Assembly (NCBI GenBank): GCA_963971425.1
Contig: OZ020517.1
Coordinates: 24,438,462 to 24,502,461 of the forward strand
Direction of reading: 5' to 3'
Source: Bryoerythrophyllum caledonicum
Lineage: Eukaryota > Streptophyta > Bryopsida > Pottiales > Pottiaceae
DNA length: 64,000 bases
Positions 10,356-60,123 of the stretch are shown here, in pieces (the first letter of the stretch is position 1; each line of letters opens with the position of its first letter). The notes below the pieces were generated by a model. That model had not been told where the DNA came from. It searched no databases and saw only the letters and a list, made by a program, of their open reading frames with translations. Made by a program: the position numbers and the translations under genes.

Positions 10356-11173
10356 TTAACCCCTAAAGGACCAAGGCAATTTTTCCTCAAAAACACTCCA
10401 AAACTGCCATTTTCAGCACATTCAACACAAAATGATACAAATAAAAAATTTGAAAATTTAACCGTAGGATCTTGTACTAGATTTTAATGAAAATGTGTGG
10501 TGAAAATTTTGACAAGTTTGACCGCACGGATTGAAAGATATCAGCCTTTGAAGTGAGACACAATCTCTTTTTTTGAGGTCATACTAAACACCTTCAACAA
10601 ACTTCGACCACCTTCTATGGCAACTTTTTGCACTATAGGCCGTGAATTTATTATGTTAACTTCAAAAGGATCATGTTAGGCACATGTGCTCTAAATTTTA
10701 GAAATAGAAGAGGTGTAGAAGATGTCCTAAAAAATCCTGCAATGCAACCATGTGCTGAGAATCAACGATACACTTTATATTTTGCATATTTCATATCCAT
10801 CTCAAATATTTGAAATTCACAAATCCAGACGGTAGATGCAAAGATCTCAATTCCCTTTCTAAGAGGACATTTTCTTTCCTTTAAATGGACCAAACTTAAA
10901 TAACTTCTAAATTCAATAGAAATTTGAGTTTTTGTGTCAGTATTTGTGATATGTCACACTAAATCGCTGCACTATTTGTATATGTAAGTGAAAATAAATT
11001 GTTACTTTTGAACTGTAAGTCAGAATTCTACAAAATTTGTGTCTACGCAAAGCTAATCAAAAGTTGTCCGTTCAATAAAAAAATCTCAGAAAATAATGCC
11101 TAGAATTGAGAACGTGGTACCTTATCCAAACTCAAAATGTCCCCCAAGGGGACATTGGTCCTTGAGGGGTTAA
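10356..11173. mobile_element. TTAA-flanked non-autonomous element 1 (piggyBac-type MITE), 818 bp
   Basis: TTAA is present at 10356-10359 and 11170-11173. The termini read CCCCTAAAGGACCAAGG on the left and, inverted, CCCCTCAAGGACCAATG on the right. The interior carries the family motif accgcacggattgaaaga. It has no coding capacity. Confidence 0.8.
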
Positions 11174-11284
11174 CTTCAAAATTGTTGATTTTAGTATAAG
11201 GAGTGGGAAAGGAAAAAAAAACTTTTGGATATAACAATGTTTATCTTAATTTTGACACATAAAATATTATGCTCACACGGTATC

Positions 11285-11490
11285 GTAAATTTTGACCAAC
11301 AAATTGAAAGTTTATTGTGTTTGAAGTGAAGAGAAGGGTTATTTTTCTTCTGTGTGACTAGAGGAACAATAGACTTTGACTTCACTTGGTGTCAAATGCT
11401 TGCACTATCATATTTTACATGATGTCACTTGCTTGTACACCAATTTTTAAAAGTAGAGGATGGAAGTAGCATACTCAAAACAATATCAAC
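11285..11490. mobile_element. Decayed fragment of the TTAA element family
   Basis: The stretch contains gactttgacttcacttgg, then a gap, then acaccaatttttaaaagtag, matching in order the interior of the complete copy at 40646-41589. No TTAA-bounded termini were found, so it is a truncated relic. Confidence 0.55.
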
Positions 11491-13037
11491 ATATCAATCA
11501 AATATTTATCAACATATCAACACATTTTGTTGTGTTGGCTTGAATTGTAGTGAAGTACGTCCATTTCCAAAATTAGAAAGTATGTGGACAATTGAATCCG
11601 ATATCTAGAAGATGGAAAAAACTCTAATAAGCTCCATATTTATAATATTAAAACCAATTATGCTACATTTCTTATCAACCAATATTGCTTTCATCCATTC
11701 ATTTTCGGAAGATGATTATCATATTGTAAGTTACATGTAGAGTTGGAATAATTACTTTTCAATTTTTATTATCAAACAATACAAATTAAAACCCAGATTT
11801 TTTTTTATATATAGCAATCAGGGTCTCTAATGAAGATGGTAGGGCCTTACACACAAAGCACATGAGGGCTACATATGCTAGTGAGAAAAAGAACTCTGGT
11901 ATCCAAAGGAGATGGCCGTGAAAAATGTGTCGATTCATTCCACTTCTTATTCTATGTCCACCACTAAGCATGTATCCACCACTAAGCCTATGTCCAACAG
12001 ACATAGGTTAGTAGTATGAAACTACTCCTCCCTCTTGAGGATAGACACTATGGAACAAGTTACAAAGAACCAAAGACGAACCGAAGACACAAAAGACCAA
12101 CTCCACATATTAACTAATGATGCTAGTTTTCAAGTAATAAAAGGTTCAATGTGGTGTAGTAGTCGTATTTAACTAGTATCGTGTAGTCCTTGGAGGGGTT
12201 GATTATTATCGAGTAGCCATTTATATAGAAGAATGGACATTGCATGTTGGATAGCAATAGTGTTGATATTTTAGAATGTATTTCTAATTGGTACATATGC
12301 TAACATATATGTCAACCTTTGAAAGCCAACTGCAAAACTTACGGTTTACCCTACTAGGCTCAAAATTGGAACAAATAGGCCTCCTATACCTCATTTGTCC
12401 ATCCACCCGAAAATCCTCCAAATGATCCTATTCACACTAAAGCCAAATACAAATGCCACAAATTGAAAACTAATACTTCTACTGTAAATTTTTACTTTTG
12501 ATGAATATTTTGACTGAGAACACAACTATCTATTCAAAGAGAGAGATTGTTGTAAACACGATTAGTAAGAATATTCATCAGGAGTAAAAACTTAAAACCT
12601 TTTTATGTCAACTACACCAAATACTAAATATAGAGTGGATTAATTGGTAATTGGGAGAAAAATGATGTGAACCACATCAATTTTGGTTTTGATGTGGACA
12701 CATTCCAACATATGTCATGCCATTCTTTGCCACTACACAATCACTCACTACCAAATATCTTCCACTCTTCTTCGCTTGCTACCACCTCACCGCCGCTTGC
12801 CGCCACCTCTCTATAATCCACATTAATTTTGTGTCAACAATTTTGAAACATCCCACACTATTTTATGAGGAACATGATTTGATGTGGATTTCGAATTGAG
12901 GTGGACCAATGTCATTTGCGTATACCGGAATTAGTGTATGTATTTCAAAATAGTTGAATCTGCACTATATGTAGTGTCTAGTGTAGTGTGGGTTATATTA
13001 AATATCAGGAATGGTAAATGGTGAGTACCATAGTGAG
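11491..13037. other. A/T-rich intergenic with remnants of a CACTA-like MITE
   Basis: No gene was identified. At about 12660-12990 there are fragments resembling the element at 54.1-55.2 kb (gatgtgaaccacatcaat; catgatttgatgtggat; then an agtgtagtgtg-like end). Short direct repeats of tccaccactaag occur near 11960-11990. Confidence 0.4.
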
Positions 13038-13326
13038 TACACTCATCCCTCCCATAAGTTATAGCCAAATATAGCGCCGGTGGATGGAGGTCATAAGAAC
13101 TTAGTAGAGGTCAAAGGGTAGTGGTGGCTTCACTAGAGGACTTTGTAATTTCAGCACAATTTATCTTCATCCACCTCTATCATTTCCTAAAATTGGCCTA
13201 GCATCAAGCGCCACGTCAAATGGCATGTGTATGTCATATGACCATGCTAACTTGAGTTCGCCCTCATGTAACCTATTCGTAGGCATGTTGGATGGTTGAA
13301 AAGCTCAAAAAGTGTTTAGAAACCAT

Positions 13327-14303
13327 TTAACCCCTAAGGTACCAAGTGTCAAAAATGGGCTTTTTGAAAGTTTGGTCAGGTTCCTATGGTGTCAATTTCC
13401 AACATTCTTCTTTGAAATTTTTGCTATAGAAAAACATTACCAAGACCTTAGTGGGAAAACAATTTTTTCCTAAATTGGACATTTGATGAAAAAGTTACAG
13501 GGTTTTGAATTTTAAATGGGGAGGGCGGGCACCTCCGGCAGCTCCAAATTTTTTTGATAGGACACTCCATTGAAAGTGAGATTTTCAGTACTCGCAAGTA
13601 ATATTATTTCCCTTCATATTGTCAAAAAAAAATTCTTGTCTTTAGTGAAAAATAGTATACCAACCCAAGTCAAACATTTTCACACATTGTCACTCATTGT
13701 TGGGCAAGGTACCAAAAAAACTTCTTCTTTTCCACATAAAGCCTAGGTCTCTATATATTTTTTCACTTTTTATTTTTTCCACAACAATATGTAATGTAAA
13801 CCTTCTTTATTTTTTCCACAAGAATATGTAATGTAAGCATTCCGATTATCAATCAAAAACATATTGAGTTCAAAAAAAATTAAAGTGTGAATTAACAAAT
13901 TTCGAGCCTCCACTCCTTGCAAACTTGTTTTGAATATACTACACCCCATCTCTACTTCTAAAAATTGGTGTGTAAGGAGCTAACATCATGCTTAACAAGA
14001 TGGCAATAGATTTAGACCTTGTGTAGTGAAATATTTGACACCAACTGAAGTCAAAGTCTGCTGATCCACTAAACGCAGGGAAGAAAATGAACCATTTGCT
14101 TGACTTCAAACACTATAATCTTTCAATCGGTGCGGTCAAAGTTTATGAAATTTTGTACATGTATTACTTAATAAGCCTTTATTGAGATCCTACGGTCAGA
14201 ACTAAAAATCAAAGTTTTTGTTACCTTTTTTATTCATTGCACTAGAATCCATTAAGTTTGAAGTGTTTTGGGTATAAAACTGTCACGGTACCTTAGGGGT
14301 TAA
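13327..14303. mobile_element. TTAA-flanked non-autonomous element 2, 977 bp
   Basis: TTAA lies at 13327-13330 and 14300-14303. The termini are CCCCTAAGGTACCAAG and, inverted, CCCCTAAGGTACCGTG. It is nearly collinear with the copy at 19790-20741 over its full length, which suggests recent mobilisation. No open frame is present. Confidence 0.85.
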
Positions 14304-14309
14304 AACAGT

Positions 14310-14660
14310 CTTGAAAGGTAGATGGCAACACATGTGAGGATTGTGGCACTATTGCACTATTGTAATTGAATAGTGATATTGTTGTGATTGAATAGTGACA
14401 TGTGAAGGAATAGTAGCAGTGTTGAGTGATATAGTGATATTGTAATTGATTGGTCTTAAAAACATAAAACAACATCATTTACTGATTTTGTGCTTTGATT
14501 CAGACATGCCTGCACTAAAAACACTTATCATTTACCGATTCTGTGCAGGCATGTTTGTAGTGTTTTTAGTGTCTTTAGTGCAAGCATGTTTGTAGTGTTT
14601 TTTGTAGTCTTTTTGTACAGGCATGTTTGTTGTGTTTTTCTGCACTAGTCACATGGCAGC
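14310..14660. repeat. Degenerate minisatellite-like stretch
   Basis: Variants of attgaatagtgatattgt recur at about 14350-14450. Variants of caggcatgtttgtagtg recur at about 14545-14640. The copies are imperfect and have no coding capacity. Confidence 0.5.
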
Positions 14661-14719
14661 ACTAGTTAGAACTTAGTTGATGTTATAGTTAGCTAAGGTC
14701 TTAAGTTAGTGGCATTATA

Positions 14720-14745
14720 CATTGACTCAAAATACTGAGTCAATG
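14720..14745. repeat. Perfect 10-bp-arm hairpin containing TGACTCA
   Basis: The arms CATTGACTCA and TGAGTCAATG are separated by AAATAC. A related hairpin (ACACTGACTCA / TGAGTCAGTGT) lies at 17381-17408, and the sequence around the two is similar in inverted orientation. Together they look like subterminal repeats of one larger element. Confidence 0.6.
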
Positions 14746-14917
14746 TTTTAGTTAGTTACATTAGATCTACAGTGCCATGAGAACAGATGAACAAATTGAA
14801 AAACTTTGTATATAAAAGTTGTAAAGCATAAAATAATAAATAGTACCTAAGTGAAAAAAACACAAATTAAATTGATAGATTCCAAGATATGGAATTTGGA
14901 AATTGGATATATACATG

Positions 14918-16113
14918 GACTCGGTTTTTTGAGTACTTTTTAGAATACACTCAAAAATTCGTCCAACTTTCTTTTGATTTCAAACAGCTCCAATTCAAGC
15001 AGGAATGCTAGCATACAACTTCCTACACTCATCTACACTGATAGAGGCATAAACCTCTTCAATACGAGTCCACAATTCATGGAGATTCCTTGGAGGAGTG
15101 GGATAATAATTCAATCTCCGTTTCATAGAAGCCCACACATGTTCAATGGGATTCAGGTCGGAAGACTGAGCAGGCCACTTCATAACATCATATGGTTGCT
15201 CCCAAAACCATTCTCGAACAATCTTAGCCGTGTGCACATGAGCGTCGTCTTGTTGAAAAATAACTTCATCGAGATCAAAGTCAAAATCTACCAATGTAGT
15301 GTATAATTCCTCCTGTAACAACTCAAGATAATTTGTAGCATTCATCTTCCCATCTGTCTTGTGCGCATCACCTACTCCTCTTGAAGTTAAACAACTCCAA
15401 AACATGACTGAACCTCCTCCATGTTTCACAATTTGTTTGACAGCATGACTTGGAAGGTTCTTTTTATCACGAATCCAACACCAAGTCCTTCCATCAGAAT
15501 TAAAATGATTGACTCTTGTCTCATCATTTAAAATGACCCTCTCCCAATCATTAATTGTCTAATACTTGTGTATTTTAGCAAAAGCTAGTCTATCTTTCAC
15601 ATTATTGGCAGACAAAGTTGGCTTGGGAACCTTCTCTATTGCCCCTAAACCTGCGTCTTTTAAAGCATTTCTCACTGTTTCAACACAAACATCCACCCCC
15701 GTCTCAGTTTTGAGTGCTCTCGTTGCTTGAACTGCATTCTCCAACCTACCTACAGTCATTGAGCGTACAACAAATCTCTTCTCACAACTTTTTAAAGCCT
15801 TTGGACGCCCTCCTTTTGACTTGTCAATGTTCTCAAAGCATTTCTTTCTAATTCTATTCACCGTAGGCTGCGACAATCCCACCGCTTGTGCTACTTTTCT
15901 ATTGCTGAAATTCTTCTGCAAAAGCGCAACTACATTCAACTCTTTTTCGTTTGAAATTGACCTCATTGTGCCTCACAACTTCTCCAGACACACTAGAAAC
16001 CTTCTACGCCCTCAGATGAACACCGGCTACAAAAAATTTCACTCAAAACTGATCAAAATTGACAAAGTTTCACTCATCACAAGTTGCTTCAAAAGTACTC
16101 AAAAACCTGAGTC
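14918..16113. mobile_element. Tc1-like transposon, ~1.2 kb
   Basis: Inverted termini are visible: GACTCGGTTTTTTGAGTAC at 14918-14936, and GACTCAGGTTTTTGAGTAC when the right end (16095-16113) is read inverted. The right end is followed by TA. The left TA duplication appears to have mutated. The element encloses a transposase-like reading frame on the minus strand. Its right end directly abuts the TTAA element starting at 16116. Confidence 0.8.
14995..15966 (-). pseudogene. Tc1-like DD34E transposase, near-intact, one internal stop
   Basis: The frame starts at an ATG (15966) and extends 324 codons with one internal TAG at 15559-15561; the frame is otherwise continuous. The N-terminus has a helix-turn-helix (KVAQAVGLSQPTVNRIRKK) and a GRPK hook-like linker typical of Tc1 DNA-binding domains. 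The catalytic triad is visible: aspartate in VILNDETRV, aspartate in IFQQDDAH, and glutamate in SDLNPIEHVW with exactly 34 residues between the last two, a DD34E signature. The final codons end slightly early compared with usual Tc1 proteins. Seed-plant mariner-like elements are typically DD39D, so this type is unusual. The copy is probably inactive because of the stop. Confidence 0.88.
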
Positions 16114-16115
16114 TA

Positions 16116-17217
16116 TTAACCCCTAAGAGCCCAAGTGTACTTGGGAAGTACGTTTTGGATTTTGGGCATGTATCTTTGAGTGGAAAAAATACTCCGATTC
16201 TTATGAAAATTTTACACTACATTGTCTTTTAAGAAATCTATATGGGAAATTTTTCAAATATGATTTTGGACTCTTGGTTCAAAAGTTATTGGCCTTCAAA
16301 GGTCAAAATGGGGACTCTAGACTATTGGGGCAGCCATGTCAACCAATGCAATTTGAGGAGAAAAAAGGGGCAAAATTTTGGGACAGAAAATGCGAGGAAA
16401 GGAATCCAGACTTCTATGCACAAAGTCCAAGTAGAAAAAGCATTGAAATTTTTTAAAAGAGTTGTTAAATTTTTTTTTTAAAAAAACAACAAACAATCAG
16501 CAGTCAGCTGGCCTGCCAGCATCCCGCGCCAGAAGCGGGCCCGCCTAAAAAAACTTTTTTTTTTTTCTTCGCCCCCCCCCCCCCCCCCCCGTCCAGCTAC
16601 GTGGGCGGGACAAATAGGCCACCCAATTTCAAGCACTGCCCTTTCCCATAATGCTTTATTTATTCCATATATTCATGAAAATTATGGATTTTACTATTTT
16701 TAGTCGTTTCTTTTTCTAAAATTAGTGAAAAATAAATTGAAAGTTTCCACCATTGGGATTCTCAAATGCAACAACTTGTATGAAACAAACAATTTCATAT
16801 CACTTACGTAGTAATTGTCAACATTTTGTACCCCCTTTCACTAAAGTGTATATTTCTACATCTATTACCCCTCGAATTGACCTCAAATTTTGCACACAAA
16901 TAGCTAATAACATACAAGTCATATTGGTAAAAGATTTGATCACATTTCAATGTAAAAACTAGAAGATATACCTAGTCAAAGTAGGCTGACCTTGCCGGGC
17001 AAGGGGGGAAAAATACTTTTCTTTGCACTTCAAACGCTATAATCTTCACATCCGTGCGGTGGATTGCAACCAAATTTGTATTGTAAGTTCATATACGTGT
17101 CTATTTGAAGATTGTACAGTTAAAAGTCTAAAATTAGACTGTAATGTTAGATTTCGTTGCCACTTGTTGATGATGGAGTGTTTCATGAGGGAAAATGCCT
17201 GGGCTTTTAGAGGTTAA
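16116..17217. mobile_element. TTAA-flanked non-autonomous element 3, 1102 bp
   Basis: TTAA lies at 16116-16119 and 17214-17217. The termini are CCCCTAAGAGCCCAAG and, inverted, CCTCTAAAAGCCCAGG. The interior includes atccgtgcggt, the inverse of the family's central motif. A G/C-rich block with a run of 19 C residues (16572-16590) interrupts an otherwise A/T-rich body. Confidence 0.78.
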
Positions 17218-17589
17218 TGCCACCTCTCTTCCTAGTCTCTCTCTCAAATTCGACCACCTATAATAAGATTAGGGTTATGTGGCATGAATCTACATAAAAA
17301 TATCTTCAAACTATCACAGTTTCTAAGATTAGATATATTCTAGAATGCCAGATGTTGCTCTCTAAAGTTGACAAACTATAACACTGACTCAGCATTTTGA
17401 GTCAGTGTATGTAACTTAGCAGTGGTATGACTTATGGGAGGGATGAGTGTAGTGAATTGGCGGAAGTGAAGAGCAGCGCGCATTGCGAATCTGCATCTCT
17501 GGAACACCAAAGCATCTGCCTTTCGTGCATCACGCTCAATCTGAAATTGCTTCTCCGCATGTATAATCCACGATTCTTTGCAAGCGCCA

Positions 17590-18057
17590 GAGCTTCTTGA
17601 GAGGAAAACTCGATTTCAGGTCAGGCATCAGTGCAATAGAGTGAGCGAGTCTCTAGGAATTTTCTAATTCGCAGAAATCTTGAGGAAAATTCGGTTTCAC
17701 GACAAATTTTGGTGCAAAGAAGTGGATGAGTCTTTAGGAATGCTCTAATCCGCAGAAATCTTGAGGAAAATCTGATTTCAGGTCAAGCTTCTGCAATTGT
17801 GTGAGCGAGTCTTTAGGAATGCTCTAATTCGCAGAAATCTTGAGGAAAATTCGGTTTCACGTCAGATTTTAGTGCAATCAGTGAACGAGTCTTTAGGAAT
17901 GCTCTAATCCGCAGAAATCTTGAGGAAAATCTGATTTCAGGTCAGGCTTCAGTGCTATTGTGTGAGCGAGTCTTTAGGAATGCTCTAATTCGCGGAAAAC
18001 TGGAGGAAATTCGGTTTCAAGTCAGATTTTAGTGCAATCGAGTGAACGAGTCTTTTG
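17590..18057 (+). repeat. Six ~80-bp repeats with alternating A/B variants upstream of the LOR gene
   Basis: The block gagtctttaggaatgctcta recurs near 17645, 17726, 17805, 17885, 17966 and 18046. It is followed by cgcagaaatcttgaggaaa. Two variants alternate, one with tcggtttcacg and one with ctgatttcaggtcag, so the higher-order period is about 160 bp. The array ends about 135 bp before the LOR start codon and probably lies in its leader or promoter. Confidence 0.85.
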
Positions 18058-18137
18058 TGAATACTGTCTCTTTCTTCCGGATTTTCGATCCCGTTCTCTG
18101 ACGAATCCATTCCGTGTTGCATCAGATCAGAGAAATC

Positions 18138-18161
18138 ATGGTTGAGAAGGCTGGAGAGTAG
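18138..18161 (+). promoter_or_regulatory. Short upstream ORF before the LOR start
   Basis: An ATG at 18138 opens a seven-codon frame (MVEKAGE then TAG), out of frame with the main start at 18193. If transcribed it would precede the main ORF and could reduce its translation. Confidence 0.45.
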
Positions 18162-18192
18162 TCTGGAGACTTTCGGCATTTCGGCATCAGCG

Positions 18193-19115
18193 ATGGGGTT
18201 TCAGTCTGATTTCTCGTTGCTGGACCTCGAGGAGCTTCACGCGCCGGCGGCTACGCAGGCGCTCGCGGCGGTGGTGCGGCAGTGCTACTGCATCTCGAAC
18301 GCCGCTCAGTACCGCCTTGAGAACGAGCTGCTGTCGAAGGCGTGGACCATTACGGACGCCAACGGCGAGGTCGTGTTTCGCGTGCGCGGCAAGAAGGTGG
18401 ACTGGTACAAGTCCAAGCGCGAGCTCGTCGACGAGAGCGGCAACACCGTCGTGTACATGGAAGAGGAGGTATTGATTTGGTCTCTTCCCTTCCCGTTGCC
18501 GAATTCTTTTGTCGACCTCGGCGCATTGTTCTTAGACGGAGGTTTTGTGGAGTTTTTTTATCAGCCGTGGACGTTGAAGAATGTGTGGAAGGCGTATGCG
18601 CCGGGGGAATCGGAGCCTCTGTTTACATTGAAGTCGACGAACGCGTTTAGTTTCAAACCAAGGGTTAATATCTTCCTTCCTGAGAACACCGCGCAGAAGC
18701 TTCCGGATTACACCATTGAGGGAAGTTTCCTAGCCAAGAAATGCCGCATTTACTTTGGCGAAGAGCTTGTCGCTGAGGTAAAGTTCTCTTAGGCTTGATG
18801 GATTTTAGGTTACTGGTGTGTTAACAGGAGCATGTAGCACGCGCAATTGTGTTATGAGGCATTTAAAGGCTGTGCAGTTGTACACTGTTAGTGCAAAGTC
18901 ATGACCGAGATTAATCTATTTCGTATTTATTATGGAGTAGGTTTGATATGATTTTGCCGTTGTACTTCTGTTCTCAGGTGTCACGGGAAGCATCTTTGAA
19001 GAACATCATTATCACGAAGAGCATTTTTAATGTTTTTGTATATCCTGGTGTGGACGTAGCGTTCATCTTCTCCATCATAATCATAATGGACAAAATTTAT
19101 GTTCATGATGATTGA
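18193..19115 (+). CDS. LURP-one-related (LOR, tubby C-terminal-like fold) protein, 3 exons
   Basis: Exons 18193-18468, 18565-18777 and 18978-19115 join in phase 0 to about 208 residues, the usual length for LOR proteins. The first intron (96 nt) is a multiple of three and open, so it can look coding. Removing it brings VVYMEEE next to PWTLKNVWKAY, matching the LOR strand pattern. Family features are a central beta-barrel with basic strand residues (FRVRGKK), LFTLKSTNAFSF, and a C-terminal hydrophobic helix after VYPGVDVAFIF. LOR proteins resemble phospholipid scramblases and tubby; LURP1 in Arabidopsis acts in basal defence, but the role here is unknown. The 80-bp repeats and a small upstream ORF precede it. 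Confidence 0.88.
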
Positions 19116-19789
19116 CAAGCTGAACGCCTTGACAATCGAGGGGATTCAGGAGCGCTACATGAGAGGTATGGTTTTTAACAGTAATTAGGTGGCAAGCACT
19201 TGTTGCTACTTTGAATGAGATTGAGTCTGGTATTGGAACCGTTGAAAGAAAGCCTGATTTTAGAGGTCAAATTGTTTGTTGATATAACTGCAAGGATAAT
19301 GTTATGCTGCTCTGCTCTTTGGCTTATTGAGAGTTCTAGATCTCAAAGGAGCAACGTTCCAAGCTTTGTACCTGTTATCCCGTATTTGAATCTGACACAC
19401 TTTCTGTTCTACCGCTTCTCTGTTGACACTAAAATCTGAGCTGTTATTACAAGGCAGCGTGTTCTGCAAATTGTGTCACTTTGTTTTCTCCCAATTGGCT
19501 CAGGCAGGTGGCAGGTCCGAAGTCTTTGAGCATGAGGCTCACAGGATTGCACATCACTTGACAGCACGGATACAGCAGCATTGACAAGGTTCACAGCTTA
19601 CCCTGTAATATTCACTGCTTAGCCCAGGCCCCATGGATCTCCCTATTTACCCCGGTCGAGCATTGCACCAAGCCTCAACTTTGGGTGGGTCCATTTTTTT
19701 GGCCTTCTAACTTTCGGGGCTCTAGAGGCTTTTCTAGGAAATTTTTTGCCAAATTTGCAGCCTGCAACCCCTACTCAGAAGTCCTCTGT
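19116..19789. other. Intergenic, 3' side of the LOR gene
   Basis: Contains the probable 3' untranslated region of the LOR gene. No further exon joins in frame after the TGA at 19113-19115, and no RNA gene or repeat was recognised. Confidence 0.35.
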
Positions 19790-20741
19790 TTAACCCCTAA
19801 GGACCAAGTGTCCAAAACGGGCTTTTTGAAAATTCGGTCAAGTTCCTATGCTGTCAATTTCAAACATTTATCTTTGAAATTCTTACCATAGAAGGGCATT
19901 ACCAAGACCTTAGTGGGAAAACAATTTTTTCCTAAATTGGACATTTGATGAAAAAGTTATAGGGTTTTGAATTTCAAATGGAGAGGGCGGGCACCTCGGG
20001 CACCTCCAAAAACTTTTGATAGGACACTCTATTGAAAGTGAGATTTTCAGTTTTTGCAAGTAATATTATTTCCCTCCATGTTGTCAAAAAAAAGTTTTTG
20101 TCTTTAGTGAAAAATAGCATACCAACCCAAGTCAAACATTTTCACACATTGTCACTCATTGTCGGGCAAGGTACCAAAAAAACTTCTTCTTTTCCACATT
20201 AAACCTAGAGATCTTCATATTTTTCACTTTTTATTTTTTCCACATCAATATGTAGTATAAACCTTCTTATTAACCATTCAGATTATCAATCAAAAACATA
20301 TTAAGTTCAAAAAAAATTAAAGTGTGAATTAACAAAATTCGAGCCTCCACTCCTTGCACACTTGTTTTGAATATGCTACACCCTGTCTCTACCTCTAAAA
20401 ATTGGTGTGTAAGGAGCTAACTTCATGCTTAACAAGATGGTAATAGATTTAGACCTTGTGTAGTGAATTTTTTAGACACCAACTGAAGTCAAAGTCTGCT
20501 GATCCACTAAACGCAGGGAAGAAAATGAACCATTTGCTTGACTTCAAACACTATAATCATTCAATCTGTGCGGTCAAAGTTTATGAAATTTTGTACACGT
20601 ATTACTTAATAAGCCTTTATTGAGATCCTACGGTCAAAACTAAAAATCAAAGTTTTTGTTACCTTCTTTATTCATTGCACTAGAATCCATCAATTTTGAA
20701 GTGTTTTTGGTGTAAAACTGCCTTGGTACCTTAGGGGTTAA
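19790..20741. mobile_element. TTAA-flanked non-autonomous element 4, 952 bp
   Basis: TTAA lies at 19790-19793 and 20738-20741. The termini are CCCCTAAGGACCAAGTG and, inverted, CCCCTAAGGTACCAAGG. It is a close relative of the copy at 13327-14303, sharing blocks such as ggacatttgatgaaaaagtt and tgctgatccactaaacgcag. Confidence 0.85.
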
Positions 20742-22883: not shown

Positions 22884-23504
22884 TTGTGTCTCTTGAAGAA
22901 AAGAACAAGCACTACATTCATGTTGGTGGACCGGAGTTCTTCTTCTTCTTATGGAATGATTTCATTCAACATTGAAATCCAGCGCTACCGTGCACATTGG
23001 TTGGGTCAAATTAAATAATTTTTCCAATCCACATTAGTTTGGACACAACGGGTATCACCTAGGTGTTACATGAGTATTGCCTATATATTACATGGATATG
23101 ACCTTGACATCACACGGGTATCACCTTAGACAAATCCCTTGTATTTTCCAAAATTATTGGATAGTCTCCATTTTGAATAAATCATGTACGAACCTGACCA
23201 ATGTGTAGGGTAAGCTATGATTTTTGAATATTTTGAAATGGTCATGAGTTATATACATATAATGAAGGTATATTGTGTTTTATTAAATCATTAAATATTT
23301 TTAATGAAGTTGTGTGTTTGAGAAAGGTACCACATTATGATTATTGTATAAATAGTAGTAAGTAAAGTTTTCTTGAAAGTCCTTCTCAAAGAAGAAATAG
23401 AGGAGGCAAAGAAGGTATGATTTTTTTATGCACCAAAATAGATCATTAAAAATTTCATGCTCCTTTATTTTGCACCAATGAAATGCATTAGTAATGGCAA
23501 TCAA
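22884..23504. other. Intergenic, A/T-rich
   Basis: No gene was recognised. Near 23040-23120 there are repeated gggtatcacct / catgggtat motifs. The last 200 bp resembles in part the sequence at 24180-24300 and belongs to the repeat block that follows. Confidence 0.3.
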
Positions 23505-24545: not shown

Positions 24546-24546
24546 A

Positions 24547-24801: not shown

Positions 24802-24989
24802 TAAAGTCTTTTCATCTTCTCCAACACAGGACTGAAATTATTGACCTACCATGCAAGGCCCTAGGCACATTAAGTTTTTTGAGGACCATCCCTTATCCGA
24901 ACCCACTAGAGACGAAGCTTCTGGTCGCCGAACCGCAGGCTCGATGACCGACCCGGAGGCCCGGATCCGAACCTGCACGACGGACTCAT

Positions 24990-25608: not shown

Positions 25609-25708
25609 GTTGCCTGAGTGGTGACTACCAAGGGACGTGAGAGTTCGCAGGGGGCGAGAACAGGAAGGCTAAGGGCCAGGCGGAGGGATCTAAGCGTAGG
25701 AAGTAGTC

Positions 25709-40645: not shown

Positions 40646-41589
40646 TTAACCCCTAAAGGCCCAAGGCATTTTCACACCAAAAACACTCTTGTTCTAATGC
40701 AATGAGTAATGAGGTGATCGAAGCGTTTTATTCCTATGCCTAACCGTAGGATCTAAATTAAGACTTATTCATTAACGCCCTTGCAAAATTTCATAAACTT
40801 TGACCGCCCGGATTGAAAGATTTTAATGTTTGAAGTAGAAAAAACTGTTATGTTTCTTCCCTGCATTGAGTGGATCAGCAGACTTTGACTTCACTTGGTG
40901 TCAACTTTTTGCACTACACAAGGTCTGAAAACATTACCATGATGTTAAGCATGATGTTATTTCCTTGGACACCAATTTTTAGAGGTAGAGAAGGGGTGCA
41001 ACGTATTCAAAACAAATGTGCAAGGAGTAGAGGTTCAAAAATTGCCAATTCACGTTATATTTTTTAGAGAACTAAATATGTTTTAGAATGATAATCCGAA
41101 TGGTCAATATGAAGGTTTAGACCACATCTTGTAGTTGAAAAAATAAAATGTAAGAATTATGAAGATTTCATAGTTTTATGGGGAAAAGAAGAAGTTTTTT
41201 TGGTACCTTGCCCGACAAAGTGTGACAATGTGTGAAAATGTTTGACTTAGATTATTATGCTATTTTCCACTTCAGACAAGAGAATTTTTTTGACAATATG
41301 AAAGGAAATAATATTATTTGCTAGTATTGAAAATCTCACATTCAATGGATTGTCCTGCCAAAAGTTTTTGGAGTTGCCTGATGTGCCCGGTCTCCCCATT
41401 TGATGTTCAAAACCCTATAACTTTTGCATAGAATGTCGGATTTAGGAAAAAACTAGACTCACACAAAGATTTTAACAGTGTCCATCTACGGTAGAAATTT
41501 CAGAAGGGAATGTTACAAAATGACACCATAGGAACGTGCCCAAACCTTCAAGTGTCCCCCGAGGGGACTCTTGGGCCTTTAAGGGTTAA
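40646..41589. mobile_element. TTAA-flanked non-autonomous element 5, 944 bp
   Basis: TTAA lies at 40646-40649 and 41586-41589. The termini are CCCCTAAAGGCCCAAGG and, inverted, CCCTTAAAGGCCCAAGAG. Orientation is opposite to copies 2 and 4. It contains gaccgcccggattgaaaga and the tgacttcacttggtgtcaa block. Confidence 0.85.
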
Positions 41590-42572: not shown

Positions 42573-42840
42573 TTGAGCTCCACCAGCTCCACGTCAGAAG
42601 GTGCCACTGGTGGGTACAGTATTCTACATGTATAGTGCCGTATTTGAACATGATATTGAAATGACCTCCAAATGAATGATGTTAGTGGAAGAACAGTCAA
42701 TCTTGCTAAACTTTAACCCCTAAAGGCCCAAGAGTCCCCTCCGAAGACTCTTGGGCCTATAGGGGTTAATACATTTTCTGTATTCTACAGAGTAGAATAC
42801 TTGCCTGTACATATGGTTCCCGACTGACGGTTGAGGGTTA
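42573..42840. repeat. Copy of the 52-kb foldback family, interrupted by TTAA element 6
   Basis: The stretch shares cgtcagaaggtgccactggt, then attctacat, atttgaacatgat, gaaatgacctcc and gatgttagt, with the element at 52027-52442. It continues after the inserted 57-bp element with tgtattctacagagtagaat. It is a partial copy. Confidence 0.75.
42713..42769. mobile_element. Minimal TTAA element 6, 57 bp
   Basis: TTAA lies at 42713-42716 and 42766-42769. Between them are two facing termini, CCCCTAAAGGCCCAAGAGTC and, on the right inverted, CCCCTATAGGCCCAAGAGTC, with only about 13 bp between them. It is the same terminus as copy 5 with the whole interior deleted, and can form a near-perfect hairpin. 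Confidence 0.85.
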
Positions 42841-50690: not shown

Positions 50691-50714
50691 CGACGCTCGC
50701 GATCGTCACCAACA

Positions 50715-50780
50715 AGTCCTCCACTTCTTCTCCTCCTCCTTCTTCTTCTCCTTCTTCTTCTTTTTTTTTTTTTTTTTTTT
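50715..50780. repeat. Pyrimidine microsatellite (TTC/TCC triplets then T tract)
   Basis: A run of ttc, tcc and cct triplets at about 50717-50760 passes into an uninterrupted T tract of about 20 bases. Similar tracts are common in plant promoters and leaders. Confidence 0.85.
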
Positions 50781-52026
50781 CTGCTTATTAAATTAATGCT
50801 TTCTGGATCATTGCACACTCCCCGTTCCCGGCAAACCTGTTTCCGTTCATCCCAGGTATTCATCCTCGTTTCATCCTTCCGTATTTTATTCCCAGGTATT
50901 TATCCTCGTTTCATCCTTCCGTATTTTATTTTTGGAGTTGAGTTGGATGAAAGTTGGCTGGTGTTTATTGGGGAATCCCAAATCCGTCACAGCACTGTGC
51001 TCTACTTTTACATGTCTGTAGAGTTGTTATGATAGGGAATCAATTTTAAATTAAGACCAACAGATTTTTGTGATTACACGATTGTTAGGATGACATATGA
51101 CTTTAGGCAAATTTTGTGTGTGTAACCCTCCTAACCCCTAATGGTGCCGAGGAAAGTGTGGCTTCTCCTTTCTAGTGTGCATTGCATTTTCGGCCTCTTT
51201 AGGATTAAGGTAGAGGCATCGAATTCCAATTGGCCACCCAATTCCGATCAATAGAATATGCATGAAATGGTGTACGAAAGTGATGAATGCATGAAATGGT
51301 GCATGAAGCAATCCAAAACCGACAATTCAAAGTCTGAAAACCCTAGTCAATATCGGCATTGGGTCATGAAGTGTGCAATTTTGGGTTGCTTTACCTTCAA
51401 TTGAGCTCTCATTGGTGGCCTTGCCTTGAAAGTCAAATAAGGCCGATTGGCATTAGGTACCTCTATGAGTTGGTTATACATGGTATGTCTTCTCTCTTTT
51501 ATTCACTTTTGCTTATTGGCATTGGACAAACGAAGGCACCAAATCTCACCTGCTCTACACTATCGTTATGGGCTCCGGTGGTTTTTGGACTTTTAAATTC
51601 AATATCAATACCAAATCTTTGAGATTAAATTTGAAAAAATATATGTTGAGATTCATTCCTAATTCCGCATCTTTCTACATAAATGTTTTTGACACACAAT
51701 GTCATTTGAGTCCCCGACTCGCTTAAGTGATCGGAATTAGGTGCCTCCACCATAAGGCTTAACAAGTTCATGAGGCCTAGAAGAATCTACAAAAATGATA
51801 GATTATGCGGAACATCACGTAAATAACAAGTACATTTGATTGGGACCCCACTTCAAAAAAAAAATTGTAGTTTGCACATGCTTGCTTTGTTTTTGGTGGT
51901 GTCTGTCCCGTTAGATGCCCATCTATCTCAGCCCTTCAAGCACAGTTGAAAATTTGCATGTAGGTGGCCTCTAGCCCTTGCTAGAGAGGATAATACCACC
52001 AAACATACCCATAAATAGATGTTAGG
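50781..52026. other. Intergenic with a possible foldback element
   Basis: A direct duplication of ggtatt-atcctcgtttcatc lies at about 50856-50930. Inverted similarity between about 51200-51240 (agaggcatcgaattcc, then ccaattccgatca) and 51735-51760 (gatcggaattaggtgcctc) suggests a degraded foldback element of about 0.55 kb. No gene was recognised. Confidence 0.4.
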
Positions 52027-52442
52027 CCTTAACCCTAAATCGTTAGAAGGTGCCAGTGGTGGCTACAATATTCTACATCTATGGTGTCATATTTAAACAT
52101 GATAAGGTTGAGATATTGAAATGACCTCCAAATAAAAGATGTTAGTAAAAGAAACTGCAATCCAAAGGTATAAGCCTTACTACACTTTGATGCAATTTTT
52201 GTATCCTACAGAGTATAATATGTCCCCAAATATACAGTTGGGAACCAAATACACAACCATGTCATTTACTCTGTAGTATACAAAAAATGTAGTGAATTTA
52301 GCAAGACCTACACTTTTGGATTGAAAATTCTTTGACTATCATCTATCATTTCAATATCTCAACCTCATCATGTTCAAATACGACATTACACATGTAGAAT
52401 AATGTGGCCACCAACCCCACCTTCAAACGTTTAAGGGCTAAC
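52027..52442. mobile_element. Foldback (long inverted repeat) element, ~0.42 kb
   Basis: The left arm carries ccttaaccctaaatcg, gaaggtg, attctacat, aaacatgat-aggttgag and atattgaaatga. The same blocks recur inverted in the right arm (tcatttcaatatctcaacc, catgttcaaatacgac, catgtagaataatgtgg, caccttcaaacgtttaaggg). The arms are about 120-200 bp each, leaving little unpaired centre. It has no coding capacity. Confidence 0.75.
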
Positions 52443-54106
52443 GTGTTGAACTTCCGGTGCTTTTGAATCAGGTAATATGTAATTTTCCAATTGTGGTGAA
52501 AATCGTACCCAAAACCGTCAAACGGTGTCTGGAATCTCGAAAAGAATTGGATAACGACGGTTTCTAGACGCGACCTGTGTTCATCCGTCGATGGGGAACT
52601 TTCATCCACGCAGCGTTGGAGGAGTGGATGGATGAAGGATGAATGTTCTTGTTGGGGGGAAGAATGATGACATCATCATGGTTGGGGTGGATGGTGATTG
52701 GAGGCCTGGATGTGGATGGATCAACATGCACTTCAAGTACTCTTCCTCTTTATAGGCATATGGAACATGATGCTGACGTCACTGGCAGTGTGAACTTTTG
52801 CACCTTTAGCACTGCATTCGTAAAGTTGAGTTAACTTTTAGTAAAGTTAGAGTTTTTCTTGAAAGTCGAGGAGAGGAAAGAAATGAGAATGTAAAGGCGG
52901 GGTGAGATTGAACCCTTCATGCCACGGAAGGCCGAAATGGGACTCCGGAGGTGTGAAAACTCAATTTGCATGAAATCCATGAGGACTTAGACTTCGAGAT
53001 ACGAGGTTCATATTTGCGCACACATTCCATGAACACTCTCCAATTACCAGATCATGCAAGATTTAATGTACATAGCTGGGAATTTGGAGATTCTAGGTTT
53101 TGTGGCTATTCAATCATACAAAACAAGACTCTTGTGAAGGGTTGACCCAAGAGTTGGATTGGAATTTAAACGGACCTTGCCACTTCCGCGAAGGTTCTCC
53201 TACCAATCCAAGGCTCAGGCATAACCTCTTATTAGAGAAACGACAAAAATGAGTATACAATGTATTTTATGGTGTTACGCATGCAAAAGTGGAAGAAATA
53301 ATACCTCAGGGGTCGCCAGCCACTGTGATGCTTTGATAGTAATCCAAACCGCCCTATCTGTTTCTAGCTAAGGCTTCCCTAAATTCTTAATGCCATAGGT
53401 GGGGTTTAGGGCACTTATGTCTCCCGCGCTCTTTCCAGCTTTGACCCCAACCTCTCTCCTAGATCATTCCCAAGTCACATATACTAAGGCATCAAAAGAT
53501 AAGTCAAACAATCAACCCAAAGACAAGACCCCCGACAGACGCACCATTTATGTATCCACAAATTCACTCCCCTTAAATTTGTTGTGTAGTCAAGGAGTGA
53601 GTTCAAGATTACACCGTATCACTAACACCATAATTGATTACACAATGGAGAAATGCAAACCTAACTCTTTACTTATGGATTCCGAATTAATTTAACTTTC
53701 TTTAATGAATTAGCTTAACCTAAGTAGTTGGATTTCATTAAAACCACTGGAATCATCCCACTTTTATTAATCAAACGTGATAAAGATTACTTGGTCTTTA
53801 GGAGTTAAATGAAGTTAGATTAACTTAGAATTAGTTCACATTGAATCCAAGGTACATGGAGTTCGACCAAGAAAATTAGTTTATTCCATGACTTAGACTA
53901 ACTAACAACAACTCATCATTTTATCCAAATGCAAATTCAGCACATGGAAGGACAACAAGTCAACTCAAAAGATTAACTTAGGTTTACTTTAATTGTATTG
54001 AACTACCCTTACTTCATCACTAGTAACTACCTCTTAATTTCTTCTTTTACCATGTAATTCTTTCTTTCTTTCTTTCTATTATTTGATTTATGCTCAATTA
54101 CTTAAT
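52443..54106. other. Intergenic, no gene recognised
   Basis: Open frames are short and overlap without codon bias. The sequence around 52560-52740 is G/T/A-rich with atggatga-like short repeats. A TTTC microsatellite lies at about 54060-54077. Confidence 0.35.
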
Positions 54107-54228
54107 CACTACACCATTCACTGAATATAGTGTAGAGGTATAGGTAATGTGGATGAAAATTGATGTGGACCACATCAATTCTAGTTTTGGATGAAAATTG
54201 AGGTAGACCACATCAATTTTGGTTATTG

Positions 54229-54440
54229 TATATAATATTAATATGTTATTATTTTATGTTATTATTATGTTATTATTATTTTATTATTTTATTATGTTAT
54301 ATTCTTATGTTAATATTATTTTATGTTATATTATATTATAATATTATGTTAATATTCTTATGTTATAAAATAATATTATTATGTTATATTATGTTATTAT
54401 TTTATTATGTTATTTTATTATTATGTTATTATTTTATTAT
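54229..54440. repeat. TTA/ATTTT-rich microsatellite
   Basis: About 210 bp of alternating ttatta, ttttattatg and ttaatatta units, nearly free of G and C except single G residues. A shorter similar tract lies at about 54963-55030, on the other side of the inner nested element. Confidence 0.9.
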
Positions 54441-54551
54441 CTATATCCATAAAAGAATTCAGGATGAGAAATCCGTTTGATGGATGAACACGTCGGATGA
54501 AAACGGTCCGTCAAATGAATGAACGCTACAAAACAGATCCACAATTTCTTT

Positions 54552-54690
54552 GCATGTGCCCTTTGGAGGAATCCATTGCATGTGCCCTTTGGAGGAATCC
54601 AGTGAATGTGCCCTTTGGAGGAATCCAATGAATGTGCCCTTTGAAGGAATCCTTTGAATGTACCTTTTAGAGGAATCCTTTGAATGTGTC
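54552..54690. repeat. 26-bp minisatellite, ~5.3 copies
   Basis: The units are variants of gcatgtgccctttggaggaa followed by tccatt. The first three are almost identical and the last two diverge (for example gaatgtaccttttagagg). Array length is about 138 bp. Confidence 0.92.
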
Positions 54691-55232
54691 CATTCATTAG
54701 GATTTGGATTTGATCTAATCCAAAACTCAAATTTTTCATCTACGTGCCTTTAGCCCGTCGGTTGTTTAGTGAATATAGTGTAGAGGGATTATTGATGTAG
54801 ATCACCCACACTAATTTCCATCAAAGCATGTGCATGCCAAGTTCTGATTGGGTATTTGTTCTCAAACAAGTGTGTGTCAGTCAACAATGGCATGTAAATT
54901 TTCAATTAGTGTAGGAAATTTCAAATAGACTAGTCTACACTATATTCACGGAACGGTGTAGTGTTATTATATTATTATGTTATTATTTTATTATTATATT
55001 ATGTTATTATCATGTTATTATATTATAATTTTGGTTTTGAGTACAATTTGTAAAAACTTATCCACATCAATTCTTGTGTGTTTTATTTTGAAACAAGCCA
55101 CACTATTTCTAATGGACATGATTTGATGTGGATGGAAAATTGAAGTGGACCACTTTAATTTGCGTTTAATGAAATTACTGTAGTAAATTTCAAATAGTCT
55201 AGTCTACACTATACTCAGTGAACGGTGTAGTG

Positions 55233-57780
55233 ATATCTTTTTTTTACTTAAGTCACTTGTACCACAGCCCCCACTCCATTCGTCTCATAACTTCTTATGA
55301 TCATTGTTATGCCCTAACCTCTCATGTACACAACTGCCCATCCCAATTCACAACCAACACCCATAGATTCAAAGAACGAACACATCACATCAAGTTTCAA
55401 AGCTTGTACCAAGGATATGCACACTACATTAAGGATTCTTGACCATTATAGGAACCCACTTGCACGGTGCACTACGGAAATTAACCCGAAAAATCACTAC
55501 AATTAAGGTTTAGGTGGAAAAATGTTGTGTATCCAGTCTTGGCACTCTTCCGATTCGGGCAACGCTCTTGCACAGTCAGAGAGACCGTGATCAACCACGG
55601 CACGACACTTAGCAGCCGTGCAACGACAACCTTGGAACCTTTGGTGTCTCCGAAACACCAAGCAATCCAGCTCCCACACCACCAAACAAGCTCGACCCAC
55701 AATCTTTTTGCACAGAAGAAAGCATTCACCTCACAGCCGCAGCATAAGCATCCACCAGTTTACAACAACCAAGCTAAGAAGAAAAATAAAATAAAATAAA
55801 ATAAATAAACGCACGAACACGAACAGAGATAAAGGCAGAATTCAGCCAGAAAGATCTCGCCTAGGAGGATTCAGGGTCCCGAGCTCTACACCGATCGCGG
55901 GGCAGGGATCCTTCCCATCGTCATCAGCTCTCACACAACACCACGATCCTCCAGCCTTCCACTCACGAACCGTGTGGCGCCGTGACTCTTGAGCTGTAAC
56001 GCTGAAGGTGATGCAGCTGCGAAGCCGTTGCGTGCTCGTGCCCCTGAGTTGATCTCGTCCGTCTCACTGCGATCTCCTCAGTCGACGCTACTCTCTAAGC
56101 CACGGGCAGAACCTCACTGAACCGCCGCCTATTCCTCCGACCACCTTCGTCCGCTCCCTCGACTCCAATCAGCAATTTCGGACTGGTTAGTTGCATCCCC
56201 CGACGCGAATCGCCGCGGTGACAATCCCCGCGATCTCACCACCCACAAACTCACGCTCTTTCGAACCCAAAAAATCTGCTTCCCACTCTGGACAGGACAA
56301 TGTCTCCTCCACGACACCAACCCCACCCTCCCCCGCAACAATTCTCCTACCAGCACTTCTTCCTGCACATCGACCACTCTCTCCCGGGTCCCTCAAAACT
56401 GAACCCTCTCACACCCACGTTTATTCCTCGCGATCTCCTTGCACTCTAACTCACACGCTGCCTTCGGCGCGCACACCCTCAATCAGTCTGTACTCCGGCG
56501 CCATCATCGTACACCCAATCCTTCGGGCAAACCAACATGAAGAAAACAACACGAGCTTCGGAGGAAAGCAACCACCTTGTCACGGGACGTGGTGTCAAGG
56601 GCCTCTCCGTATCGTAGTTTTAGCGTAGATTAGTTTGTTACTAAACTACGGGTGTTTAGGGATGTATGGCAGTGCAACACATTCATCCATGGATGATTTT
56701 CATCCACTTAGGGTTGTATGTTTGTGCGTATAGCGCCGCACACGTCCTTGACTTGACGTCTTTGTCAAGTCAAGCTTTGTGAGTGAGTTAGAGAGTGTTT
56801 TGTGATTTCTTTTGCTTGTAAGTGATTGTTTATCATTGGTAAAGGCTCTGCATTCTCTTAAACTACTTGCACTCGTTGAGTCTCCCTTTGAGGAGTGTGA
56901 GACGCTTGACTACGTGAGTGATTTCATACTTGTTCAGGGGGGGCACTTGAGGGTGTATTACGTATACTTGTTTTAGTGTATGATTTTCGTTTTTTTATGT
57001 TAATTAGGACTCTTGATCTACTGTGGTTATCGATCTTTCTTTACACGACAACCTTCTTTTCATCACCTACGCTTATGGTCATCTCAATTTCCACGATATG
57101 TCTCCGTCTACTTCCAACAAGTACCACGAAACCTCCTTCCCGTGTGGTCGTGCTATCACCCTCCTCCGGCCTCTTACCGGTGCTCACAAGCGCCCTCGCT
57201 CGCCTATTGGTCTGATCGTTGTGTCGCTTATTTTACAGCGTGCGTTGATCGCCTTCTCGGCAGCCCTGCCGCGCTCTCCCTTTGGAGCTCGATCCTCACT
57301 GTCTCCCTCTTGAAATCCTTGCTTTAGCCCAGGTCGTTTTTCTCACTCTTTCTCTTTCCTTGCGCCGAGAGCCTCCTCGTGCCGATGCCTTCTGTCATTG
57401 ATCTCCCAACACTCTGCCTCTCCCCCATCACATATCGGAGCTCTTCCTCGTCGCGAGTACCGCTGCGCTCCTTGTCCCATGCTCTCACCCGCTCCTCGCT
57501 TTCGAGCATCTCATGCTGCCCTAGTGATTACGCAAGTCTCGCGCCCTTTCCTGAGCTGCGCATTGCTAATTTCTTCAACTTCCCCACCACTTGCTTCCAC
57601 GGTCCTCCTTGATTTACTACCATGTTCTCCTAAGATTGATATCCACCTTAGAACCTCACGGGTTCCTACATCCAACGATCAACCAGCCTTGGTGGCCATA
57701 TCCATGTGTCGGCCATGGCCAGCCATAACCGCCATAGCCAGCGGTAATCAACAAGACTTCTTCTTCTTTCTCTTCTTCTA
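55233..57780. other. Large intergenic block without a recognisable gene
   Basis: Several overlapping open frames occur on both strands but none shows a family motif or stable codon bias. The 55500-56600 part has a moderate G+C content and could be a degraded gene or retroelement. The 57000-57750 part is pyrimidine-rich with proline/serine/leucine frames in all three phases. No long terminal repeats, primer-binding site or reverse transcriptase motif was seen. Confidence 0.35.
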
Positions 57781-58200
57781 TCCCCTAAAAACTCCAACAC
57801 TCCTTGTTGAAATATAACATTTTAAACTCTAATTCTATAATCTAATTTCCACATTCTAAATTCTAACAATTTTTCAATTATATATATTTTTTCTTTCTTT
57901 TCCACTAATCTTTCTTTTCTCTCTCCTACTATTTTACCTTTCACTACTTTAACCACTAACTACTAACACTAACTTCCATGACTAACTAACCATAACAAAA
58001 CCCTAATAAAAGTCACTCTAAATTTCTTTTGTCTCTTTAACTCCTCGCATCTAAACTTTCTCACTAACACACCGATTTTCTCATTACCACTAATTTAATG
58101 AGATCCTCAGATCTCCATTACTACTAACAACATCCCATCACTAACTTCTAACTAACCCACACAAATCCAATAATTTAGTCTAAAACCAAATGTGACCCAA
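57781..58200. other. Plus strand almost devoid of G
   Basis: In 57781-58080 I count seven G residues in 300 bases, while C, T and A are all abundant. Motifs such as ctaacta, actaac and cccaca recur. There is no coding frame. Confidence 0.6.
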
Positions 58201-58229
58201 AATTTGGGCTCACACCTGTCCATCACCGC

Positions 58230-58502
58230 CACCTTCCTACCAATGCAAATCTATATTTAGTCCCAATTTCACCCCATATCCACCCCATTTCAACCCATTC
58301 ACTCTTTTTTAGCTCCAAGTTGAGGCTTAGTATTGGTCAAGATCCTAACTTTAGGTCGGCGCTAATGGGGGGTACCTAGGGGCAGATATAGGCCAAACAT
58401 GGCAGCACACTTCGAAAATTCATAACTAATTCAATTTTTATCGAAAAAATATGAAACCACTTGGGTTGAGATTATAATTATGTTGGCTACCACTGAAAAA
58501 TA
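58230..58502 (+). repeat. Left arm of a diverged inverted repeat pair (partner 63430-63700)
   Basis: Shared blocks include gggtacct near 58370, catggc, attcataactaatt, atatgaaa, gggttgagattataatt and gttggctaccact, all found inverted at 63440-63570. The outer part matches more weakly (agctccaagttgagg against agctccaaatggagg). Confidence 0.6.
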
Positions 58503-58804
58503 AATGTATAATTGTTTAATTCTCCTTAGATGCGCAGTAGATTGAGCTGTCACGAGCCACTCCAAAACGATGTGCTTTCGCAAGCCAAATTCTGGGCTTC
58601 AAGCAAAAAGAAGTAGCGAAGGCCTTTTCCTCAGGGTTTCACCCTTTTGGTTGGCAGTTTGGTTTCCTCGGTTCCTTTGTTTCTCAAGCACAAAGCTATG
58701 GCTGTTCCTTTAGTTCTTGGCGTTGCTCTCCGTTGAACTCTTCTGGGGGAGATGGTTTGACTTTCTTCTTTCTTTGACCCCTTTGGGACGGTTATTATGC
58801 TAAG

Positions 58805-60123
58805 TGGGGTTTCACACATGGACCATGGTACCAAGGTACCGAAGGACCAAACTATGCCAAGGTGCCGAGTTCTGGAATTGGAATTTTTCTTTTATGATAC
58901 AGTCTCCTCCCTTTACAAAGACCTCATTCGTTCTCCTCCCTTTACAAAGACCTCGATAGTTTTGCCTCCAATATTGAGAGGTTGTTATAATGGAAAGGGG
59001 GGTAAATGAGTGTACTGTAAGTGTTGTTGTCATAAAGGGAGATGATTGGTTTTGATTTTAGGTGGCAGTTATCACGAAATTGTTGTTGTATCAGATTCTT
59101 GTATAAAGAGAGTTGATTGTATGCGATCTGCAGAATTTGGAACCTTGTAGTGTGAAAGTTCAAGGTACCGAGTTGAGAGGCCATGACCCAATCTATTTTA
59201 CAAATCTCTAGTCAATATTTACTTCTTTAACCCCTAAATTACCAAGCCATTTTCAAACCAAAACTCACTTCAGAATTGCTTGTTCTAGTGCAATGAGTAG
59301 AGAAGAAAACCAGAACCTTTAATTCTATTTAAAATTGTAAGATCTCAATCAATACTTATTGAGTAACATACTCACAAAATTTCATAAACTTTGAGTGCAC
59401 GGATTGAAAGATTAGAGTGTTTGAAGTAGAAAAAATGGTTCATTTTCTTCCCTGCGTTTAGTGGATCATCAAACTTTGAGTTCACATGGTCCAATTTTTG
59501 CACTACACAAGGTCTAAATTCATTACCACCAGGATAAGCATGATATTAGTTCCTTGTACACCAATTTTTAGAGGTAAACAAAGAGTGCAAAATATTTTTT
59601 AGAATTGTGCAAGGAGGAACTTGCCCAAACCTTCAAGAGCCTCCCAACGGGACTCTTGGTAATTTAGGGGTTAAGGTCCTCTGAATAAAAAAATCCTCTC
59701 AATTTCTTTAGTCATGGAGCCTAGAAGAGAACACATTCTTGGTAAAAAAATCAAGACAATGGTCCAAATGCTCATTTCACAAAAAAAATCCAGCATACGC
59801 ACTAGGCACAGAAAAAATTCACGTAAAAAAATTCAGGTGAAAATTTAAATTAAAAATTTAAGGTAAAAAATTAGGAAATATTTTTTGGATAATTTTTTTT
59901 AGGGTTGCATAAGTTATTATTTTGATCTAATGGGTGAGATCTTGTCAAATTTGAATATTTTAATAAAAGAAATTTGGCACCTCGGCAAGAGTTTGGTGTG
60001 ATAGAGAATAGAAATCTAAACATCCCTCACGTGACCAAACTCTTGGCGCCAAAACCTCTAAATAGTGCTACCATGTATTCAGTTTATATGCCCTTGGTAC
60101 CTTGGTCCAAGTGCGAAACCCCA
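58805..60123. mobile_element. 1.3-kb element with ~30-bp inverted termini, containing TTAA element 7
   Basis: The left terminus is TGGGGTTTCACACATGGACC then ATGGTACCAAGG. The inverted right terminus is TGGGGTTTCGCACTTGGACC then AAGGTACCAAGG. No clear target duplication is visible. A short direct repeat of tctcctccctttacaaagac lies inside near 58906-58955. The last 12 bases overlap the first unit of the 531-bp tandem array. Confidence 0.65.
59227..59674. mobile_element. TTAA-flanked non-autonomous element 7, 448 bp
   Basis: TTAA lies at 59227-59230 and 59671-59674. The termini are CCCCTAAATTACCAAG on both sides, identical over 16 bp when the right is inverted. It carries the left half of the family interior (gcacggattgaaagatt, cttccctgcgtttagtgg) and then jumps to the right terminus, so it is an internal deletion derivative. 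Confidence 0.88.

Follow-up and report, generated by a model that had tools for sequence, protein, structure and literature searches.

Transposons of the piggyBac superfamily encode a transposase with a C-terminal cysteine-rich domain and excise without leaving a footprint. They are best known from animals, and lists of plant transposable elements seldom give them weight. Two members used here for comparison are piggyBat (9c0f) and the database entry 6x67, titled just 'Transposase', which we take to be the T. ni piggyBac. The coral Acropora offers the closest described parallel for the association of such elements with miniature inverted-repeat transposable elements (MITEs): the passages of PMC2872659 on these families describe a TTAA target, CC[C/T]T termini, and MITEs that occur beside several piggyBac-like elements, one family being apparently element-derived. 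The well-known Stowaway and Tourist MITEs of plants are likewise non-autonomous relatives of DNA transposons, but are entered under Tc1-Mariner and PIF-Harbinger in Table 1 of PMC9033089. Here we describe seven elements, E1-E7, in a 64,000-bp stretch of the genome of the moss Bryoerythrophyllum caledonicum (hereafter the window), which are almost certainly non-autonomous piggyBac MITEs with a TTAA target, E3 deriving from a full-length element and the others most likely from related elements.

The window covers bases 24,438,462-24,502,461 of contig C4, has a G+C content of 43.4%, and belongs to an assembly of 437 Mb in 894 contigs. The seven elements are given below, where the + strand means that the end we call A-type lies at the left of a MITE.

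10356..11173, + strand: E1, MITE of 818 bp with TTAA at both ends.
13327..14303, - strand: E2, MITE of 977 bp with TTAA at both ends, 90.3% identical to E4.
16116..17217, - strand: E3, MITE of 1102 bp, internal-deletion derivative of an element like G000:C8:124364-131920.
19790..20741, - strand: E4, MITE of 952 bp from a low-divergence, many-copy subfamily.
40646..41589, + strand: E5, MITE of 944 bp with TTAA at both ends, 75.8-78.2% identical to E2 and E4.
42713..42769, no strand assigned: E6, palindromic mini-element of 57 bp, two termini around a short loop.
59227..59674, + strand: E7, MITE of 448 bp, a shortened relative of E2, E4 and E5.

These intervals, first proposed in a sequence-only reading of the window, proved correct to the base. 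As that reading had stated, TTAA stands at all 14 outer edges and is followed by a CCCCTAA-like terminus, which is exact at 10 of the 14 and deviates at the right ends of E1 (CCCCTCA), E3 (CCTCTAA), E5 (CCCTTAA) and E6 (CCCCTAT). The motif TTAACCCCTAA occurs 17 times in the window with at most one mismatch; 100 shuffled versions averaged 1.10 occurrences with a maximum of 5, and none reached 17. No stop-to-stop frame of at least 120 aa lies inside any window element, and a 131-aa frame at 15731-16126 extends into the first bases of E3. The elements had also been proposed to form one seven-member family. The common termini bear this out, whereas the single family does not hold: E2, E4 and E5 are homologous over their full length (75.8-90.3% identity) and E7 matches these three at 77-78% over about 390 columns, with its final 60 bases 83% identical to E5, but E1 and E3 match the other elements only piecewise, at about 58-73%. 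The elements are better read as several subfamilies with common termini.

The sequence-only reading had further proposed a piggyBac-type origin, with a longer copy encoding the piggyBac DDE domain between the same termini to be sought elsewhere in the genome. Such elements exist. Whole piggyBac elements with TTAACCCCTAAA boundaries occur in the same genome, and the autonomous partners found are piggyBac, not members of another superfamily. The termini of the full elements listed here read CCCCTAAA, and the lineage of loci L036 and L046 reads CCCTTAAA at the single end examined.

C3, 17,753,132-17,759,686: full element with an open transposase frame and a 200-N assembly gap.
C9, 9,718,676-9,725,151: full element with an open transposase frame and a 200-N assembly gap.
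C10, 18,464,557-18,470,105, and C2: full element, the L043/L044 pair, 99.9% identical over 5,501 columns.
C8, 124,364-131,920: full element spanning 7,557 bp, transposase frame of 1,059 aa.

The C3 and C9 frames are 813 and 805 aa long, both open, and the two elements are collinear, with 99.4% identity over 5,761 columns and 100% over a further 355; the match extends beyond the TTAACCCC-bounded ends, by 1 base on the near side and by 5 bases on the far side. Identity between L043 and L044 reaches one base past the 3' TTAA, the 5' end being taken from C10 only as the C2 stretch is shorter, and the DDE part of these elements is encoded by an open frame of 474 aa that follows a second frame. The near-identity of copies with open frames points to probable recent movement.

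Searches with PF13843, the piggyBac DDE domain, gave 120 matches in the genome (best E-value = 6.2e-81; 116 of 305 candidates scored, with four genes each split in two pieces) and none in 14 control genomes. The sequence-only reading had noted no source transposase in the window, and none of these 120 listed matches lies there. The nearest one ends 15.9 kb before the window and carries two stops, and the 5' end of this relic is 81.3% like that of E3. The 813-aa frame of L031 matched 6x67 (E-value = 9.5e-29, about 430 residues) and piggyBat (E-value = 2.6e-24, about 380 residues), and two further chains at an E-value of about 0.001 are other proteins. The three aspartates that we take to be catalytic in 6x67 and 9c0f are in register with the L031 transposase in the alignment. 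When eight sequences, taken from seven copies, were scanned strictly for the motifs, three had all three, four had two, and the short 3' fragment of L030 had none; cysteine-rich C-termini are visible by inspection of the translations, a reading made without model comparison. The plant transposases are like T. ni piggyBac and piggyBat in homology and in the TTAA target, but they are distant relatives, and some of their frames, which reach a total length of 1,059 aa, have long N-terminal extras. By pairwise comparison the copies examined fall into four groups with less than 50% protein identity (L031/L030/L045; L043; L036/L046; L047), and pairwise matches range from 30 to 66%, apart from L036 and L046 at 84%.

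The link between MITEs and full elements is closest for E3. The C8 element is matched at one end by E3 positions 1-283 (80.6% identity) and at the other by positions 507-1102 (84.4%), and because it matches both ends, E3 is an element of the C8 kind minus its middle. The remaining larger MITEs have the same layout. Type A ends are E1 left, E2 right, E3 right, E4 right, E5 left and E7 left, and in full elements the 5' side on C3 and the 3' side on C8 and at L112; type B ends are E1 right, E2 left, E3 left, E4 left, E5 right and E7 right, and in full elements the 3' side on C3 and C1 and the 5' side on C8 and at L082. Each of the six larger MITEs combines an A end with a B end, and full elements have the same two types, which we name A and B, not 5'-like and 3'-like, as the gene direction varies by lineage. 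For the B ends, the C3 and C8 lineages are connected only indirectly, via E5. At its left end E1 is 64.6% identical to the C8 element over 257 columns and 63.1% to the C3 element over 225, and at its right end 72.2% to the C3 element over 97. E2 matches the C8 element at its right end (63.4%, 273 columns) and the C3 element at its left (68.9%, 177 columns), the ends of E5 match the same two elements at 63% each (261 and 173 columns, respectively), and E7 matches the C8 element at its left end (60.6%, 289 columns) and L082 at its right (69%, 62 columns). Overall, the PF13843-bearing partners share with the MITEs the terminal repeat and, at both ends, about 60 to 600 bases adjoining it. These two ends are the part common to MITE and full element here, unlike the animal case of Acropora, where, in the account of PMC2872659, MITE families resemble one another more in the internal region than in the terminal inverted repeat (TIR).

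Across the genome, TTAACCCCTAAR occurs 19,651 times compared with 145 for a reversed-pattern control, and TTAACCCCTAARGNCCAAG occurs at 42 exact places. The repeat CCCTAAA is the plant telomere repeat, and this resemblance is what would favor telomere-like or chance CCCCTAA repeats without mobility; such an origin is essentially negligible in probability, given the excess over the reversed pattern and the fact that full-length homologues sit between unrelated flanks. Searches with the two E4 ends returned 3,235 and 2,950 first-look candidates, which are candidates and not confirmed copies. The 40 scored for each end all reached at least 97% over 190 of 190 bases or at least 217 of 220, with one extra short piece in each list. 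From 39 full-length right-end matches outside the window we drew 20 copies with their sequence unseen (the first 14 listed and 6 from further down). All 20 were full-length, with a mean identity of 98.15% to the majority sequence and pairwise identities of 94.5-98.4%, and their flanks, some tens of bases each, were unrelated except for one 23-bp match. TTAA was present at 20 of 20 ends selected by the search and at 19 of 20 unselected ends, the exception being GTAA. TTAA also stands on both sides of a 21st copy, which had been retrieved for a different purpose.

These counts bear on the view that the elements are Tc1/mariner MITEs with a TA duplication that lie in TTAA contexts by chance. A Tc1-type transposon at about 14917-16115 (- strand) directly adjoins E3, and at a TTAA target an ACCCC-ended element that duplicates TA would have the same appearance. 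We nonetheless consider this view extremely unlikely, since a TA-only target would not require the TTAA found at the unselected E4 ends, E3 has the two ends of a piggyBac element, and the Tc1-type transposon has its own, different inverted ends. A duplication of TA only, which the sequence-only reading had named as a refuting outcome, is excluded because TTAA is kept at independent insertion sites. An empty-site comparison is also available: an E4-type MITE is interrupted by the C3 element at a place where uninterrupted E2, E4 and E5 have one TTAA, which shows a single insertion at TTAA.

Several observations weigh against a piggyBac origin with a TTAA target for all seven elements. The empty-site comparison alone cannot separate a TTAA duplication from a TA duplication at a TTAA target. 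CCCCTAARGNCCAAG is found at 74 places (3 for the reversed control) with exact TTAA at only 42; the other 32 are one base off (21), TTAA with an extra C (5), two bases off (5) and three bases off (1). Among 17 loci picked by one exact end, 9 had an evident partner end within 2 kb, with no more than 1 mismatch in 11, and 8 did not, a count that is partly circular as the pattern contains TTAA. The ends of E2, E4, E5 and E7 are 58-74% identical to those of the full elements examined, among which no direct parent of these four was found; in the comparison that also covers E1, the identities are 58-73% over 62-289 columns. Finally, the transposase gene between the A and B ends has opposite orientations in the C3/C9/C1 and C8 lineages, for which gene exchange and gene turning are possibilities.

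A comparison by eye of E4-end places with PF13843 places gave no E4 parent, and the closest pair, 3.7 kb apart on C9, proved to consist of a C8-type element with an ordinary E4 MITE next to it. The missing E4 parent leaves room for the idea that E4-type MITEs were moved by another superfamily, such as Sola3 or Kolobok, which are said to use TTAA. Sola1 is recorded for moss in Table 1 of PMC9033089. Movement by such a superfamily seems very unlikely to us, no Sola or Kolobok model having been searched, because E2, E4 and E5 each resemble full piggyBac elements beyond chance at their two ends, over 127-286 columns, and E3, which has the same A/B layout, has a piggyBac parent.

The piggyBac origin can be set out as follows. 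E3 is a full-length element of this genome after loss of its middle, and the other MITEs most likely arose likewise from related full elements. Each has retained what the full element has at its ends, namely the TTAA target, the CCCCTAA terminus and some 60-600 adjoining bases. By analogy with known piggyBac elements, a DDD transposase from the open full-length copies would bind the MITE ends in trans, excise the MITE exactly at TTAA and insert it at another TTAA. The full elements, the shared ends, the TTAA beside independent insertions, the open frames and the near-identical copies at separate loci are observed directly; the pairing of a particular transposase with a particular MITE is inferred in the same way, and present-day movement is a possibility.

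What we describe is a known kind of transposon, unusually abundant and diverse, in a host group in which its description is scarce. The sequence-only reading held that piggyBac-type elements are not a standard component of plant genomes, which is fair but has exceptions. PiggyBac is given among superfamilies present in all groups studied in the relevant listing of PMC4438587, it is named among plant superfamilies in PMC10794571, and the abstract of PMC10813416 speaks of piggyBac isolated from plants. Genome tables report 1,230 PiggyBac fragments in the C-fern assembly (PMC6890710), 206 in Oryza coarctata (PMC10576809), 60 in Stellaria dichotoma (PMC13180808) and 0 in Cyperus iria (PMC11751304), with a genome share of 0 or 0.00% in each, and a 2022 land-plant review (PMC9033089) leaves piggyBac unnamed where it lists six TIR superfamilies. 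Among the matches listed in open-licence literature, none had a native land-plant piggyBac family as its title subject; a moss paper (PMC10619864) was set aside as a piggyBac source since both word matches are 'piggybacking'.

We give even chances to the broader reading that this land plant hosts a large piggyBac system that has diversified and has been active recently and perhaps still is, with MITE families of probably thousands of copies, four transposase groups, open copies of 99.4-99.9% identity at different loci, and a gene turned in one lineage. If true, no such system would have been described in plants before, and it could serve as a native piggyBac tool for them. With 120 transposase matches and close to 20,000 exact termini, this genome suggests that piggyBac is a main source of DNA transposons and MITEs in some land plants, and the open, near-identical full copies make piggyBac activity in plants directly testable.

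Some full elements also carry MITE sequences. The C3 and C9 elements contain a truncated E4-like MITE without termini and an 887-bp TTAACCCC-bounded element; MITEs have therefore hitched along with the full element. E4-like sequence 3' of transposase genes (L030, L032 and its kin, C8, L046) was at one point considered an integral part of the element but is now read as inserted MITEs, because it lacks termini in the C3 and C9 copies and keeps one terminus in a related C1 copy. A 9.4-kb pair of exact termini on C10 was rejected as one long element, as it has further termini inside and no frame above 109 aa. At L096 (G000:C7:11046350-11047450) an E4 copy is followed directly by the start of another element, with one TTAA common to both, as if one had inserted into the duplicated site of the other.

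The E6 type occurs at 8 loci including 42713-42769 when up to 3 mismatches are allowed over a core of 35 bases, and 4 of the 8 are flanked by exact TTAA on either side. Palindromic 57-bp mini-elements are also noted at G000:C9:1931493-1931549 and G000:C7:18085043-18085099, and the palindrome on C7 has a different inner sequence. Such tiny elements are rare and not in excess, because paired exact termini occur at 3 places with 44-74 bp spacing compared with 8 places at 324-354 bp.

Three further features of the window remain. The first adjoins E1:

11174..11483, + strand: remnant of an older E2-type MITE, 66.9% identical to E2 599-938 in reverse, outer end missing.

What this remnant lacks is not found in the left flank of E1, so simple nesting is no explanation. 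The Tc1-type transposon has HTH_Tnp_Tc3_2 and DDE_3 matches. Its two frames are separated by a single in-frame stop, its D-to-E distance is 34 by manual count, and its right end abuts E3. DD34E Tc1 elements seem unusual in plants. As a source of the MITEs this gene was rejected on its differing ends, a comparison made for the window element, other genomic Tc1 elements not having been searched. Lastly, a land-plant host is indicated by a PTR2-family frame in the window that scores 239.6 bits against the entry 'Nitrate transporter 1.1 / NRT1/PTR family 6.3', presumably from Arabidopsis, and at most 89.2 bits against SLC15 chains, presumably from animals.

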